This document shows positions 3,485 through 17,000 of a stretch of DNA of 26,516 bases, in pieces. The DNA comes from a virus. The stretch covers positions 1 to 26,516 of the IMG/VR virus record IMGVR_UViG_3300032084_001174, one strand, 5' to 3'. The notes below the pieces were generated by a model. The model saw only the letters and a program-made list of their open reading frames with translations, made no database searches and was not told the origin of the DNA. The translations under genes and the position numbers were made by a program. Each line of letters opens with the position of its first letter. Positions within the stretch are counted from its first letter, which is position 1.

Positions 3485-3642
3485 ACACTGATGATATTAT
3501 GAGTTGGAAACAGATACAAGAGCGAGCCATTATTGGACTAGTGAGCGTAGCAATAGCACACATAGACAATGGTGACATAGACGATGCAAGAGAGACAATG
3601 ATGGGCATCATCATATCCTTAGAAGGTCAGGTGAAAAGATGA
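3481..3642 (+). CDS. Small hypothetical protein (53 aa)
   Basis: Function not recognised. The start ATGA overlaps the helicase stop, and the stop overlaps the next start (3639) in the same way, so it sits as a coupled gene between two well-supported ones. It is predicted helical (WKQIQERAIIGLVSVAIAHI, then DDARETMMGIIISLEGQ). It shares the loose pattern NGxxxDARE and SLE with the 42-aa product at 987-1115. No membrane segment or cysteine motif is convincing. Confidence 0.5.
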   Translation: MNTDDIMSWKQIQERAIIGLVSVAIAHIDNGDIDDARETMMGIIISLEGQVKR

Positions 3643-4154
3643 ACATCTTTGTCCTACATAAGAACCCAATAACAGCAGCAAGAATGCACTGTGACAAGCA
3701 CATCCCCAAGATGTGTGTTGAAGCAGCACAGATGATGGCATCAGCCCTGCGCCGACATGGTGCTACTGATGAGCAAATGCCACTAACTAAGAGTGGCACA
3801 CCCTACAAGGGTGGCTACAAACATCATCCTTGTACAGTATGGGTTGGTGAAACTCGTGCTAACTTCAGTTGGCTTTCCCTCCATGCCATACAGTTGTGTT
3901 ACGAATACAAAAAACGCTTTGGTAAAACTCATGCTTGTAAGCAACCTATTCGTTCAATGGCTAATATGATTCACATGATACCGAAATTAAGTAGAATTAT
4001 CCATACACCATTTGCACAGGCTATGCCTGACGAGTATCGTGATAATGATGCGGTTAAAGCATACCGAGCATACTACCATTCCAAGCAGTTCGCCAAGTGG
4101 GAGAAGGGTACACCTGCCCCTAGTTGGTGGCGAGGCGTGGAGGTGACGGCATGA
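3639..4154 (+). CDS. Phage-type conserved protein of unknown function (171 aa)
   Basis: The N-terminus (MNIFVLHKNPITAARMHCDK, then HIPKMCVEAAQM), the mid-region NFSWLSLHAIQLCYEYKKRFG and the C-terminal AYRAYYHSKQFAKW match my memory of a family common in marine phages (MNIF-L-DxDP, then CDKHxxKMxxE). Members are usually left as hypothetical, though some carry a pyrimidine-dimer glycosylase-like label that I cannot verify. Conserved His, Lys, Glu and several Trp suggest an enzymatic or nucleic-acid role. Start at 3639 by the ATGA overlap. It ends GVEVTA, encoded over the first copy of the GTGGAGGTGACGGCATGA junction. Probably a gene shared between bacterial and archaeal viruses. Confidence 0.6.
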   Translation: MNIFVLHKNPITAARMHCDKHIPKMCVEAAQMMASALRRHGATDEQMPLTKSGTPYKGGYKHHPCTVWVGETRANFSWLSLHAIQLCYEYKKRFGKTHACKQPIRSMANMIHMIPKLSRIIHTPFAQAMPDEYRDNDAVKAYRAYYHSKQFAKWEKGTPAPSWWRGVEVTA

Positions 4155-8350: not shown

Positions 8351-8897
8351 AATAATTGACGAGATGCAGACTCTGAGAAAAAAGGCTAAGGATTACGATA
8401 AACTGGCGGCTGAGGTAAAACTACTGAGGAGTAAGGCTTCAAGTTACGATAATTTGATTCTCGACTTGATAACTATACTAGACGAGTGTCATTACAATGT
8501 TGACAAGAACAGGCTTCTTTCGCAGATTGATGTTGAGCATGTAACTCGGTCCAGTGAACTGCCTCAAATGAAAAAAGAAACCGTCGCTAAAAGATTGGAT
8601 GAAGTTCGTAATCCGTCTAAGAAAAACTATGCCCTTTGGAAATGTAAAGAATGTCACATTTTCAATGTCAGAGCATCTAAGCGAATTAAAGTGTCTTCTA
8701 ATGGAAAGTTTACATTCACAGATGACGTTCAGAGTCCTTGTCCTTGTTGTGGATACAGACAAAGACTGAGCCCTAAGAACACTAGGTTGTACACAAACAA
8801 AAACGAGGCGCAAACGCATAGGATAACTTTGCAAAAACTTGGAGCCATAGACTGGCTTGACTTTGACTTTTTGAGGGAAACGAATGCTACTGGCTGA
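8334..8897 (+). CDS. Coiled-coil protein with C-terminal zinc ribbon (187 aa)
   Basis: Residues about 5-45 form a heptad-like coiled coil (EIIDEMQTLRKKAKDYDKLA onward). The second half has CKEC (about 102) and CPCCGYRQ (about 139), typical of a nucleic-acid-binding zinc ribbon, followed by a short helical tail. The start ATG at 8334 follows CTGAGGGAAACGA. The same 15-nt string recurs at this gene's own end (8872-8886), giving matching tails LRETN in this and the preceding protein. Function unknown; a dimeric adaptor or regulator is plausible. Confidence 0.55.
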   Translation: MATIDEIIDEMQTLRKKAKDYDKLAAEVKLLRSKASSYDNLILDLITILDECHYNVDKNRLLSQIDVEHVTRSSELPQMKKETVAKRLDEVRNPSKKNYALWKCKECHIFNVRASKRIKVSSNGKFTFTDDVQSPCPCCGYRQRLSPKNTRLYTNKNEAQTHRITLQKLGAIDWLDFDFLRETNATG

Positions 8898-10338
8898 AGC
8901 AGCGCATATCTCAGAGAGGCTACGACATCTCTACCGTAACTACATGACCGATGCAGAGAATCGGTCTAATCATTTCAGAAACTCTGTCGACATAGTTAGA
9001 CAAGCGGTCAGAAATGCAGAAGAAGATTTGAACCAACTGGTTGAGATATTCTATCCTGAGTATTCTCGATACCCAAGACAGTTCATATCGTTCAGAGAAC
9101 TAAGGGATGATGTTTGCAAGAAGTTATCTATTTCTCCTTTAGTATGGGATGAATCACTTGCAGGTAAACCGTTAGTGCCACTGCTTGCATTGGAGTCACC
9201 TGAGTACGGCGGTCAGGGTTTGACAATCAAACAAGCGATGAACCTCATGGCTAGAGTAAAGGACGAAGGCTTTCTTCAGATTGCTGGCAAACTGAATGAG
9301 AAAGAAGCACTATTGTTTTGGTCGAGGGCTACTGGTGAAAGACCACCCATGCCCATGAACCGATTCATACAACTAGTTTCCTACATCAAGGAAGGTTACG
9401 CTCAGAGTTTGAAGTCTGTCAACATCATGTTACAAACGATGACTCCCTCTGAAATCATACAGAGGATAATGGCTACTGAGAAAGACTTGGAAGTAAGAAC
9501 CATGCAGCCGGGTCAGCCTTTCATTGGACCAGTGTACAAGTCTTGGGATAAACTGACTACGCCCACTGACGTATATGCTGAAGTGGTGACCTACCCAAGA
9601 CAGTACTTACACATTACTGAGTTTCCTAAAGGTAAATTCAAAGGAGTGCTTTACAACCGTCACAAGCAAGTGATGGGTAAGCCGATACAACTACCTTACA
9701 GTAAAACAGAGGGAGTGTTTGAGGTAGAGGTAGATGGACCTATTGTCAAGTCAGTCACTGACGTATTGGCGATAGACGAAGACTGGTCTATTTACAAGTT
9801 AGATTACAAAGACAGAATAGACTACCTCAATAGATTACAATTCACCGTGCCGTTGAAGAGTGGTAAGTTCATACCTGCTTCAACAGACTTCAATCATTAC
9901 ATTGAGAGCCTTGAACAAGGTCAGAGATTGAGACTAACCAGTGCCGGACCAATTGAGTTGGGAGGCACAGGTGGCTGGGTCATACTCAAAGATGCTTTCC
10001 ACTTACACTTACTCGTTACAGCAATCAAGCGAGACGAAGAATACCTAACCCAAGTGAGAGTATCAGCAATGGATGGATACGAAACTTACGAAGTTGGACA
10101 GTTAACATTAAGTCAGACTGTCGCTCAGCATGGTCGTCAACGACTAGCACAACAAGGCGTACTGGTAGGTCAGGACTGGATTCCTGTCGATGAGTACGCA
10201 CTAGTACTCGTAGTGGAGATGAAACATTTCTCCCTCGATAGTTTGTCATTGACCGAAGGCGAAGTAAAGTATCTTGATGATACACTGGGCTACGGTGATG
10301 TATCTCAGTTGACTGATTTGATAGAAATAAGTGACTGA
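8884..10338 (+). CDS. ATP-dependent DNA ligase-like protein, probably lacking the catalytic lysine (484 aa)
   Basis: Overall order resembles archaeal/eukaryotic DNA ligases. It has a helical N-terminal ~200 residues, then a nucleotidyltransferase-like region (DVYAEVVTYPRQYLHITEF from about residue 229; VEVDGPIVKSVTDVLAIDED with KLDYKDRIDYLNRL near 290-315, like ligase motif IIIa; GGWVILKDA near 363-371, like motif IV). A C-terminal OB-like segment follows, with VGQLTLSQ and DEYALVLVVEM. No KxDG (motif I) is present anywhere; the equivalent position reads EVVTYP. If the homology is right, the protein cannot form the ligase-AMP intermediate and may be a structural or DNA-binding relic. The family assignment is tentative. 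It lies directly upstream of the clamp loader, and its start follows GAGGGAAACGA. Confidence 0.4.
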   Translation: MLLAEAAHISERLRHLYRNYMTDAENRSNHFRNSVDIVRQAVRNAEEDLNQLVEIFYPEYSRYPRQFISFRELRDDVCKKLSISPLVWDESLAGKPLVPLLALESPEYGGQGLTIKQAMNLMARVKDEGFLQIAGKLNEKEALLFWSRATGERPPMPMNRFIQLVSYIKEGYAQSLKSVNIMLQTMTPSEIIQRIMATEKDLEVRTMQPGQPFIGPVYKSWDKLTTPTDVYAEVVTYPRQYLHITEFPKGKFKGVLYNRHKQVMGKPIQLPYSKTEGVFEVEVDGPIVKSVTDVLAIDEDWSIYKLDYKDRIDYLNRLQFTVPLKSGKFIPASTDFNHYIESLEQGQRLRLTSAGPIELGGTGGWVILKDAFHLHLLVTAIKRDEEYLTQVRVSAMDGYETYEVGQLTLSQTVAQHGRQRLAQQGVLVGQDWIPVDEYALVLVVEMKHFSLDSLSLTEGEVKYLDDTLGYGDVSQLTDLIEISD

Positions 10339-10384: not shown

Positions 10385-11311
10385 ATGAATCTGAGAGAGA
10401 AGTACCGACCTACCACTGTTAGTGAGTTAGTAGGACATGGTGATTTTGTCAAGGCAGCAGTGTCTTGGGATATCGATACCTGTCCTGCTAACATCCTGCT
10501 GGTTGGTCCACCGGGTGTAGGTAAGACAAGCGCAGCCTACGCTTTGGCAAAGGACCTACAGGGTGAATACTTCGACCCTAGTAACTTTACCATTACCAAC
10601 GCCTCTGATGACAGAGGTATTGATTACATCCGTGAACTCAAATCAATCAGCAAACAAAAGGGATTAGGAGTCAGTCGCAGAGTAATATGCTTGGACGAAG
10701 CAGATAGTTTTACCACACCCGCTCAGAAAGCATTGAGGCAAGTGATGGAAGAGAGTCACAAGAGCACTATATTCATACTAACCGCTAATGACATTGGTCC
10801 TATTCACAATGCTATACGAGACAGATGCTTGACATTCCATTTCAAACCAATTGATGAAAACAACACAAACAGACTTACCGACATAGTTGACAAAGAAGGC
10901 ATGCCGAGTCAATGGTGTGACCACTTACCCAACTTACTCAAATACACTAGTGGTAGTTACAGGCAAGCGATTGATATCCTTGAAGGACTACCTAAACAAG
11001 AAGATGCTCTCAAGGAGCATCTGAGAAGAGACACCGCTTATCTTAACAAGGCGGCTCTCAATCTCATGGGAAGCGATTTCCCAATGCTTACGGCTTTCTT
11101 GACCCAAGCCTTAGAATCGGGTCAAAGTAGATTCGGAGTGCTTAAAGGACTCCGCTACCGTGCCAAACCGTTAATGGAAAGCGAAAGCGATTGGCACAAT
11201 TTCATGCTCACTTATGGCGAATTCGTCTTACTGGCTACTACGTGGCCTGATGACGATGTGTCATTTGTGGAATACTTTGTAGCAAAACTGAAGAAAAATA
11301 TGGAGGAATGA
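10385..11311 (+). CDS. rfcS: Replication factor C small subunit (clamp loader ATPase)
   Basis: An AAA+ ATPase that would load the PCNA-like clamp onto primer ends. Visible motifs: RFC box I-like MNLREKYRPTTVSELVG; Walker A GPPGVGKTS (41-49); Walker B CLDEAD (about 102-107); the arginine-finger region with IRDRC, where the family has SRC; and sensor 2 GSYRQAID. Length 308 aa is slightly shorter than typical archaeal RfcS (about 320). The C-terminal collar is helical and less conserved. No large-subunit gene is visible, so the virus either forms a homo-oligomer or pairs with host RfcL. It overlaps the next gene's junction (GGAGGAATGAATATG). Confidence 0.93.
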   Translation: MNLREKYRPTTVSELVGHGDFVKAAVSWDIDTCPANILLVGPPGVGKTSAAYALAKDLQGEYFDPSNFTITNASDDRGIDYIRELKSISKQKGLGVSRRVICLDEADSFTTPAQKALRQVMEESHKSTIFILTANDIGPIHNAIRDRCLTFHFKPIDENNTNRLTDIVDKEGMPSQWCDHLPNLLKYTSGSYRQAIDILEGLPKQEDALKEHLRRDTAYLNKAALNLMGSDFPMLTAFLTQALESGQSRFGVLKGLRYRAKPLMESESDWHNFMLTYGEFVLLATTWPDDDVSFVEYFVAKLKKNMEE

Positions 11312-13726: not shown

Positions 13727-14488
13727 ATGACAGAATTCACAATAAGTAAAGATAACTTTGTCAACTTCTTATCGAGTTTCGGTAAGGACTTAGGTGACAT
13801 AGTAATTGATGTACGCTCAGGTAGTATATCAGCAGCGGTTGCAAAGACCACTCATTACATCTATAGAAAGATGGATTGCGGTGCAGAAAGCAACGGCAAG
13901 ATATACGTCACTGACATTCCAAAGATGAAGTCTTTCTTGTCAACAGTCAAGACTCCCGATTTGAAAATTAGTCAACAGGGTAAGACAGGTACGCTACACA
14001 TCAGGGCTGGTAATTCTAGCCTACAGTTGCCTACTTCGTCTTATGTTGAATCACAGAAAAGACTAGGTATTTTAGACAAGGCAATAACTGAATCTAGGGC
14101 AAGTATGTGGACCAAGTGGTTCGCTACTCCTCTTACTCACCACGCTAAAGTATCAGCCGAAGCACTCAAACCTGCTACCGGATTCAAGAAGGTTCTAGGT
14201 GACAAGTATTCTTGTAAGACAGAATTCGATGCCGATGGTGAAGAATTCATCATCAGAGGTGGCAAGAGTGAAACTGGCAAGATGTTCGTTAGGGCCGCTC
14301 TATCTCAGATAGACGCACCCGTTACTCCTTCACGTTCAGCGTTTGACAAGTGGCTACCTGAATTACTCAACAACTTACCTACAGGTGAATTGGAATTACA
14401 CACAGGTGATGAAACCGTGTTGGTGATAGAGCAACCGGGTACGAACTTCTTGATGATAGTGATTGACCAAGAGTATGAGGAGGATTGA
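13727..14488 (+). CDS. PCNA-like sliding clamp (divergent)
   Basis: At 253 aa it has the size of archaeal PCNA (about 245-250) and lies between the recombinase and the DNA polymerase. The pattern of alternating strands fits: FVNFLSSFGKDLGDIVIDVR, then YIYRKMDC; a middle linker region; SAFDKWLPELLNNLPTGELE; and the terminal TNFLMIVIDQ. The C-terminal strand arrangement, with an interdomain loop of basic residues, suggests a trimeric clamp, but primary-sequence identity is low and classic motifs are weak. It would tether PolB to DNA after loading by RFC. It ends EYEED, encoded over the next SD (GAGGAGGATTGAATATG). Alternative: another replication accessory factor. Confidence 0.55.
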   Translation: MTEFTISKDNFVNFLSSFGKDLGDIVIDVRSGSISAAVAKTTHYIYRKMDCGAESNGKIYVTDIPKMKSFLSTVKTPDLKISQQGKTGTLHIRAGNSSLQLPTSSYVESQKRLGILDKAITESRASMWTKWFATPLTHHAKVSAEALKPATGFKKVLGDKYSCKTEFDADGEEFIIRGGKSETGKMFVRAALSQIDAPVTPSRSAFDKWLPELLNNLPTGELELHTGDETVLVIEQPGTNFLMIVIDQEYEED

Positions 14489-14490
14489 AT

Positions 14491-14649
14491 ATGGGTAGAG
14501 ATGTATGTTGGCTCTGCGGAGGCAAGTTGATATGGGGAAATGATTTTGATGCAGAGGACTTAGGTTATGACCGGCCCGGTATAGTTGCACAATTACAATG
14601 TTCAAATTGCAACGCATTTGTAGAGTACGTATCATTGGAAGAGGAATAG
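14491..14649 (+). CDS. Small zinc-ribbon protein (52 aa)
   Basis: CWLCGGK near the N-terminus and CSNCNAF near the C-terminus form a complete small zinc ribbon. The ATG at 14491 lies 7 nt after GAGGAGG, with the clamp gene's stop in between. The protein ends SLEEE, the acid tail typical of this virus's junctions. It sits between clamp and polymerase genes, so a link to the replisome or to transcription is possible but unproven. Confidence 0.5.
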   Translation: MGRDVCWLCGGKLIWGNDFDAEDLGYDRPGIVAQLQCSNCNAFVEYVSLEEE

Positions 14650-14651
14650 AC

Positions 14652-17000
14652 ATGATAATCGACACCTTCCGACCTGACCCTGAAGGGCCCGACCATATCT
14701 ACAAGAGATGGCGTGATACGGAAGGTAACTTGATTGAAGAAACTGTATCGGACTTCAGACCTTACTTTTGGATTTCAGCAGATACTTCCCCTAGATACGC
14801 TGAGCGTATACTAGACCAGTTCCCCGGCTCAGAAATCGACTGGAATGATACAGCAGAAGGACTGAGAGATAACGAGAAACTAGCCAAGGTGTATACGTTC
14901 AGGCAGTCCGATATCAGAGAGATGGCTAGGCGATTCAAGAAAACATGGGAGGCTGACCTAAGTCTCTCAGATAGGTATCTCATCGATTGCGTAGAAGAGA
15001 TGCCTAAGTGGAAACCTCGTGTATGGCACTTTGATTTAGAGTGGGACCCGAAGACAAAGGAGACTACCGTCATGGCTGTAATTGACAGTTACAACAATCG
15101 TTACGTTTCCTTCTGCTGGAAACATGACAACCCAACAAATCTGTATGACATGGACCATCACATAGAAAACAGAGAAGTAGATTACGAAGTAAACGGTACA
15201 TCTGTTACATTCACTTACGAGAGGCATCTGTATGGTTCAGAAGAAGACATGCACGAGGCTTTCTTACATTACTTGGATGAATGCAATCCTGACGTATTCA
15301 TTGCTCACGCAATCATGTGGGCGGACTTACCTCACTTGGTAAACAGGCTCAAACAGTTCCGTAGGCTCAGCCCTCTAGGTAGAGTGCTAAGACCAAGGAA
15401 CGATTCTTACGACTACGTAGACCAACCAATACTAGGTAGGTTGTGTTTCGATACAGCCGCACCAGTTAGAAGCGGTAGTGGCTTTGAACGTGTATGGAAG
15501 GACAGTGGTAAACCTCAACTGAAGAATCTAAAATTAGACACTATCGCTGAAGCATGTAAGTTAGGCGGTAAGTTTGACATGGACGTGTTTACTGGTTGGA
15601 AAGAAAGATTCGATGCATATGTGGATTACTGTATGCAGGATACCCTGTTACTCAAGAAGATAGATGAAGAGAACCACGTATTCAACTTCTTCCTATCCCT
15701 ACAACAGTTATGCGGTGTATCATTCCGCTCCTGTCACAATGTCACTAGGTTTGCTAGAGGCCTCATACAGAGAAGGACTCACTGGAAAGCACCTAGTAAA
15801 TCTACTCAAGAAAAGCAAGAGTACGAGGGTGCTTTCATCCCGCCACCTAAACCGGGCAGGTATGAAGGGGTCGCTTGTGTCGATTACAAAGGACTGTACC
15901 CTTCTATCATCCTATCACACAATCTCAGTTGGGAAACTCAAGTGCCTAAGCACATGGCGGGTGAAGAAGGTATTAGACAACTACCTGATGGCACTTGTTG
16001 GAGACAAGGCGTAGACGCACTACTACCCACCATAGTAACTGAGATGTTTGAGTTACGTGATGAATACAAGAAGAGAATGCGTGAAGCCCTTTCCGAAAAT
16101 GAGAGAAACGGATGGAACACATTACAACTAGCGGTCAAGCGTGTCATGGCTTCCTTCTACGGCATGACTGCTAGTGCATACTGGGGCTGGTCAGACTTTG
16201 ACATAGCCTCCGCTATCACTGCCTGTGGAAGACGGGCTATCAGATTCCTAATGGAAGAATCAGATAATCAGGGCTACAACGCTCTGTATGGGCACACTGA
16301 TTCGGCATTCGTACAAGTGCCCTTTGATGAGGCAACTGCTCTTGCGAAGCATTTGACTGAAACTGTTCAGCGTGAACATGAGTCAAGTCATCTGATTGTA
16401 GAATTTGAAGCCTACATGCCTTACTGGATTGTAGGTGGTAAGAACCTGTACTACGGTATCTGTTCCTACCCACCTGAAGATGATGGTAAAGTCAAGAGCG
16501 CTCGATGGGGTAAAATCAGCACTCTCGCTCCTATCTCAAAGAGCCTTGAGAACGATGTACTGACAGCCATCTGTACAGGTGCCGACGAGGATGAGGTCAT
16601 CTCTATGGTTCGTCCACTGTCAAAGAAAATACAGCGTGGTGACGTTGCTTACAAAGACATAGCAACCACCACTAGATTACAGAAACCAATACGTGATTAC
16701 TCTACATCGACCGGAGGCGCTGTCAAAGCGGCTAGGTACTACAATGAGCACCTATCCAGTGGTTCTTTGCTAGGCGAAGGGGATAGTGTGAACTGGGTGT
16801 ATGTAAGCAAAGCACCTGCTCACTTACCACCGGTCGATGTAGTTGCATTTGAAGAGGAAAGTGACCTGAATGATTTCGTTTTGGATTACGGTAAAATGGT
16901 TGACAAACTCGTTAAGGCGAAGATAAAGCCTATCTTCAATGCCCTAAATTGGGACTTGGAGATGGCAAGCGGGGCAGCAATGCCTAAGAGGTACTGGTGA
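14652..17000 (+). CDS. polB: Family B DNA polymerase with 3'-5' proofreading
   Basis: A replicative polymerase of 782 aa. Exo I FDLEW gives D128 and E130. Exo II is DVFIAHAIMWADLPHL (the D is kept, but N-x-x-x-F-D is altered). Exo III is YCMQD (about 342). Motif A DYKGLYPSII begins at D411. Motif B is KRVMASFYG at K496 (the family usually has NSxYG). Motif C is YGHTDS at 546-551, where the family has YGDTDS; the first aspartate is replaced by histidine (H548). No uracil pocket or large N-terminal extension was evident. The frame opens at 14598, but GAGGAATAGAC positions the ATG at 14652. Despite the motif C change the rest looks functional. It is preceded by clamp and zinc-ribbon genes, consistent with co-expression. 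Confidence 0.95.
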   Translation: MIIDTFRPDPEGPDHIYKRWRDTEGNLIEETVSDFRPYFWISADTSPRYAERILDQFPGSEIDWNDTAEGLRDNEKLAKVYTFRQSDIREMARRFKKTWEADLSLSDRYLIDCVEEMPKWKPRVWHFDLEWDPKTKETTVMAVIDSYNNRYVSFCWKHDNPTNLYDMDHHIENREVDYEVNGTSVTFTYERHLYGSEEDMHEAFLHYLDECNPDVFIAHAIMWADLPHLVNRLKQFRRLSPLGRVLRPRNDSYDYVDQPILGRLCFDTAAPVRSGSGFERVWKDSGKPQLKNLKLDTIAEACKLGGKFDMDVFTGWKERFDAYVDYCMQDTLLLKKIDEENHVFNFFLSLQQLCGVSFRSCHNVTRFARGLIQRRTHWKAPSKSTQEKQEYEGAFIPPPKPGRYEGVACVDYKGLYPSIILSHNLSWETQVPKHMAGEEGIRQLPDGTCWRQGVDALLPTIVTEMFELRDEYKKRMREALSENERNGWNTLQLAVKRVMASFYGMTASAYWGWSDFDIASAITACGRRAIRFLMEESDNQGYNALYGHTDSAFVQVPFDEATALAKHLTETVQREHESSHLIVEFEAYMPYWIVGGKNLYYGICSYPPEDDGKVKSARWGKISTLAPISKSLENDVLTAICTGADEDEVISMVRPLSKKIQRGDVAYKDIATTTRLQKPIRDYSTSTGGAVKAARYYNEHLSSGSLLGEGDSVNWVYVSKAPAHLPPVDVVAFEEESDLNDFVLDYGKMVDKLVKAKIKPIFNALNWDLEMASGAAMPKRYW

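Follow-up and report, generated by a model that had tools for sequence, protein, structure and literature searches.

The virus record IMGVR_UViG_3300032084_001174 of the IMG/VR collection contains, within its positions 1 to 26,516 (the window, meaning the whole stretch of 26,516 nt analysed here), a gene that raises the question of what a DNA ligase without its catalytic lysine might do beside a clamp loader. The open reading frame (8884-10338; all window features described below lie on the plus strand) begins with ATG and encodes a protein of 484 amino acids. The original prediction, made from the sequence of the window, had read this protein as an inactive ligase from the order of the strings VTDVLAIDED, KDRIDYLNRL, GGWVILK and VGQLTLSQ and from the missing KxDG motif. 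All four strings are present, KxDG is absent, and the adjacent clamp loader that it named is an RFC-like AAA+ ATPase, the next gene downstream, beginning after 46 nt (10385-11311; Pfam AAA, 3.4e-16; DNA_pol3_delta2, 1.3e-12). The reading that we prefer, with a probability of about 0.6, is that the protein keeps a ligase fold, has lost nucleotidyl-transfer chemistry, and has stayed in the viral replisome as a non-catalytic component.

The first step is whether the fold is that of a ligase at all. Single-sequence searches of Pfam, PHROGs, NCBIfam and the PDB with the 484-residue protein returned no match, and neither did profile searches of the PDB with shallow and deep family alignments. In a scan with PF04675, PF01068 and PF04679 the window protein was unmatched, and one of 36 family members gave a PF01068 match (E = 0.11). 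Further, an AlphaFold2 model built from 16 close relatives was poor, with a predicted local distance difference test (pLDDT) score of 49. The empty searches and the poor model would fit a replication accessory protein that has no relation to ligases and only looks like one when modelled. However, a deeper alignment of 36 viral relatives, containing no ligase, yielded a confident AlphaFold2 model (pLDDT 83.8, predicted template modelling score (pTM) 0.42) whose best matches, full-length and in domain order, are without exception ligases, making an unrelated protein a most improbable explanation. In particular, the first 31 PDB matches found by Foldseek were ATP-dependent DNA ligases from archaea or eukaryotes, with 2cfm at the top (E = 2.7e-15), and capping enzymes and LigD from the same superfamily came next; the viral matches in BFVD were also ligases, with an unnamed protein first and the ligase of Halogranum tailed virus 1 (HGTV-1) second (E = 4.9e-14). 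Using VIA-align, the model matched both 3gde and 2cfm over its full length (residues 1 to 484). The superposition on 3gde (Z = 18.5, 441 residues) had a root-mean-square deviation (rmsd) of 12 Å because the placement of the domains is uncertain; the nucleotidyltransferase domain alone (206-372) fitted human LIG3 (10ye_L) with an rmsd of 2.6 Å over 160 residues (Z = 16.0).

Sequence profiles provide independent support. Against four ligases, hhalign gave no signal with a shallow family alignment; a 43-member profile and 80 cellular ligases aligned collinearly over 361 columns with a score of 31.8 (P = 0.0048), which only 2 of 600 column shuffles reached, and no shuffled alignment exceeded 217 columns. 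Moreover, a ligase hidden Markov model (HMM) matched the most divergent family member, L207 (26% identity), at motif IIIa (E = 3.3e-5). Judged from the model, the protein almost certainly has the three-domain fold of an ATP-dependent DNA ligase from end to end, and the structure prediction, run as a check on the ligase assignment, offered no other fold. AlphaFold2, Foldseek and VIA-align place the three domains in ligase order: residues 1-200 (8884-9483), all-helical in the model and collinear by hhalign with the N-terminal region of Pfu ligase, correspond to the ligase DNA-binding domain; residues 206-372 (9499-9999) form a shortened nucleotidyltransferase-like domain; and residues 373-484 (10000-10335) form a beta-rich, OB-like domain with pLDDT values mostly between 80 and 90.

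The second step is whether such a protein could still act as an enzyme. In ligases, motif I reads K-x-D-G-x-R; in this family its site reads [V/I/M/L]-x-x-x-R-[R/Q]. At column 235, the position of the ligase lysine, all 43 aligned members carry V, I, M or L, and K-x-D-G is absent from every one, so that the loss first noted in the window protein extends to its relatives, with no conserved lysine at the site. The window protein itself has V-T-Y-P-R-Q at residues 235-240 (9586-9603), a site located by hhalign of residues 222-268 and by a strand-loop-strand in the model. Two nearby candidates were set aside: F-P-x-G (residues 247-250), which the same alignment and strand pattern put in the turn of the hairpin after motif I, and KFKG (251-254) as a KxxG motif, because relatives replace K251 by T or Q. 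Conservation within the family is highest at residues 241-260 (YLHITEFPKGKFKGVLYNRH; 9604-9663; mean conservation 0.84), just past the lost motif, which suggests that this surface now serves another purpose.

The remaining motifs are partly preserved. At the motif III position, assigned from order and strand pattern, E-V-E (residues 280-282; 9721-9729) has lost the glycine, and E280 and E282 are invariant in 36 of 36 members. Motif IIIa with its following helix (residues 290-317, SVTDVLAIDEDWSIYKLDYKDRIDYLNR; 9751-9834) is recognised by hhalign and by the ligase HMM on L207, so that the label first given to VTDVLAIDED was correct; its aspartate, D293, is invariant across the 36-member alignment. 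By hhalign and column counts, the motif IV position holds Q-R-L-R-L (residues 347-351; 9922-9936), or E-R-L-R-L in most relatives, with arginine in place of the glycine. GGWVILK, which had been taken for motif IV, corresponds instead to motif V (W-x-K-x-K), located in the same way at W-V-I-L-K (residues 365-369; 9976-9990), and its lysine is retained in 24 of 43 members. No RxDK/RFPR signature of motif VI was seen in the OB-like domain.

These columns bear on the possibility that the protein uses an unusual or displaced nucleophile and is still active as a nucleotidyltransferase, ligating or transferring a nucleotide. The invariant glutamates of motif III and aspartate of motif IIIa would suit an active site, K266 is nearly invariant, column 236 (S, K, R, T, E, G or A) holds K in 11 and R in 8 of the 43 members, and in the literature the magrovirus gene goes under the name of ATP-dependent DNA ligase. 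However, the family has not a single invariant lysine, no D or G follows the lysines of column 236, the D and G of motif I and the glycine of motif IV are gone, motifs V and VI are as eroded as described, and the window protein reads V-T-Y-P where the nucleophile should stand; an active enzyme is therefore quite improbable. To judge by its sequence, the window protein very probably lacks ligase activity. Compared with the replicative ligases of archaea and eukaryotes (2cfm from P. furiosus, 3gde from A. fulgidus and human LIG1), it shares their three domains, identically ordered, and a recognisable motif IIIa; unlike them, it lacks the motif I lysine, the glycines of motifs III and IV and motif VI, its nucleotidyltransferase domain is cut to about 170 residues, and its identity to them is 12-16%.

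The third step is why a virus would keep such a protein. Relatives in IMG/VR range from 26% to 88% identity: two scans with the protein yielded 18 relatives at 60-88%, and the divergent ones came from a PolB-anchored scan that returned 80 loci with PolB identities as low as 47%. Of the PolB-anchored loci, 37 include 7.5 kb or more of sequence upstream of PolB, and all 37 encode the family. Pairwise ratios of nonsynonymous to synonymous substitution rates (dN/dS) within the family are about 0.01-0.06, so the gene is no decaying pseudogene; it is an intact, real gene under strong purifying selection, and the ligase-fold protein without motif I is conserved across magroviruses. A profile of the family alignment found no relatives in cellular genome contigs, and tblastn of the protein in a phage collection gave no real match. 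In the nearest clade 43-61 nt separate the family gene from RFC; in other clades the distance is about 0.4-1.5 kb. As a separate observation, the 0.4-1.5 kb gap in L171, L173, L195, L208 and others has room for one extra gene without a counterpart in the clade of the window.

The constant position of the gene near the clamp loader, within a cluster that includes PolB, PCNA and primase, supports a place in the replisome. Here, the protein would be unable to adenylate itself, lacking the motif I lysine; it may bind nicked or primer-template DNA and/or PCNA, RFC or PolB as a bridge, much as poxvirus A20 places an inactive ligase domain in the polymerase holoenzyme, and the host ligase would seal the Okazaki fragments. 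A function as a replisome scaffold or DNA-binding part has about an even chance of being correct. Alternatively, the protein could be a decoy or inhibitor, a dead ligase that sits on nicks or on the clamp, blocks the host ligase and keeps nicks open, or steers host replication factors to viral DNA. A ligase fold that does not turn over could occupy nicks, the purifying selection on the family would suit such a task, and the virus seemingly has no active ligase of its own. However, blocking the cell's only ligase would harm a virus that encodes a polymerase, clamp, clamp loader and primase yet lacks a ligase, and the constant place near RFC better suits a replisome part, so that a decoy appears unlikely.

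Several observations weigh against the non-catalytic replisome reading. By sequence, the window protein itself is only weakly linked to ligases, with no Pfam, NCBIfam or PDB sequence match, and a pTM of only 0.42 makes the domain arrangement of the model unreliable. The mapping of motif I comes from a profile alignment and a strand pattern rather than from a superposed model, and the 11 relatives with a lysine one position past the expected site (as in KGSRR and KAQRR; the member from L173 is one of them) might have residual activity. The helical domain has a net charge of 0, as does the corresponding Pfu domain, and the PIP site of Pfu ligase (QKSFF) is not evident in the 484-residue protein.

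Magrovirus genomes are 90-110 kb long (PMC12999244), and a canonical ligase was sought in 12 related records of 80-109 kb using PF01068, PF01653, PF09414, PF04675, PF04679 and a ligase alignment. The NAD ligase, RNA ligase and ligase N- and C-domain profiles were unmatched in these records, and PF01068 matched only a giant, lysine-less frame; a very divergent ligase might escape such a search, as the 484-residue protein shows, and the 12 records are not proven complete. The searches did give matches in cellular controls: three Thermoplasmata metagenome-assembled genomes, used as a positive control, all had strong PF01068 matches (E about 1e-57). The proposal that the virus borrows the host ligase thus gains support from the lack of a detectable canonical ligase in 12 long relatives, and stops short of proof.

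The giant frame is itself a second case. In the long relatives, PF01068 matches not the 484-residue protein but a frame of 1,800-2,000 amino acids (E about 1e-6) placed between portal-like and prohead-protease-like genes (for example, L025:2128-8157 and L026:2205-7658). Near its C terminus lies a ligase-like nucleotidyltransferase domain (hhalign to ligases, P = 1.4e-5), ahead of which no ligase DNA-binding domain was recognised. Like the window protein, this domain is a homologue of the ligase nucleotidyltransferase without the motif I lysine; unlike it, the domain keeps the G and R of motif I (M/L/Y/F-P-[E/D/K]-G-E-R, as in M-P-E-G-E-R) and is embedded in a giant protein of the morphogenesis module. 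An hhalign match between the two (P = 0.005) spans 99 columns, motifs IIIa to V, and a common descent is plausible. It seems rather probable that this order of archaeal viruses has converted DNA-ligase genes into two ligase-fold pseudoenzymes, a replisome subunit and a domain within a giant protein of the virion module, and carries no active ligase, so that the annotated 'ATP-dependent DNA ligase' would be no enzyme.

This bears on published accounts (PMC10768690, PMC12999244), in which the profiles of these abundant ocean viruses include an ATP-dependent DNA ligase and their replication asks little or nothing of the host. Should all their ligase-like genes be dead, that independence would fail where nicks are sealed, and reliance on the host could be put to the test. 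No mention of the missing lysine was found in the openly readable literature, a scope that leaves out the original magrovirus descriptions, and priority is uncertain. Overall, the ligase-based reading of the original prediction was largely right; neither the predicted structure nor motif I of the relatives contradicted it.

Inactive enzymes in replication and repair machines have precedents. The middle domain of poxvirus A20 has been described as an inactive DNA ligase, with a catalytic subdomain and an OB fold, in the polymerase holoenzyme (PMC11142717). By analogy, A20 resembles the window protein as a virus-encoded, catalytically dead ligase fold kept in a DNA replication machine; it differs in its additional N- and C-terminal domains, which bind D4 and E9. 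In contrast, the window protein is a stand-alone three-domain ligase fold whose virus encodes a clamp and clamp loader, while poxvirus processivity is described as working without a PCNA-type clamp (PMC10253040). If correct, the replisome reading would add a further case, after A20, of a dead ligase fold within a viral replication machine, and would join other inactivated replisome enzymes; in Pol epsilon, for example, the C-terminal module is an inactivated polymerase that is essential in yeast (PMC7544198). Lig4, too, plays a structural part in end joining when catalytically inactive (PMC11754673). The HGTV-1 ligase (YP_008059398.1), the second-best BFVD match of the model, likewise comes from a tailed archaeal virus; unlike the window protein, its motif I is intact (KVDG). 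Separately, a protein of 171 amino acids encoded at 3639-4154 in the window resembles, by eye, small phage pyrimidine-dimer glycosylase-like proteins, and is of interest because A20 partners with a DNA glycosylase.

The surrounding genes point to the type of virus. Pfam matches in the plus-strand replication block are the RFC-like clamp loader and a family B DNA polymerase (14598-17000; PF00136, 9.3e-33); other genes of the block, named from reading their sequences, are a helicase, glycosylase-like, PCNA-like (13727-14488) and primase-like genes, nucleases and a chaperonin. Related contigs of 80-109 kb share gene order with this block. The Magrovirales module is recognised by PolB, PCNA, RFC-S, primase and chaperonin genes running opposite to the morphogenesis genes. 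From its gene content, with only PolB and RFC matched by Pfam, the window likely carries the replication module of a magrovirus-like virus of Poseidoniales. Magroviruses, whose hosts are Poseidoniales (Marine Group II archaea), have been described with such a gene set (PMC10768690, PMC12999244). PolB itself varies among the related loci: it is seemingly split or frame-broken near residue 450 into two pieces in different frames at L015:16495-18851 and L017:16447-18803, and it has three in-frame stops at L014:13686-16121. These broken genes recall the PolB-NTD/CTD split named for Aobingvirus.
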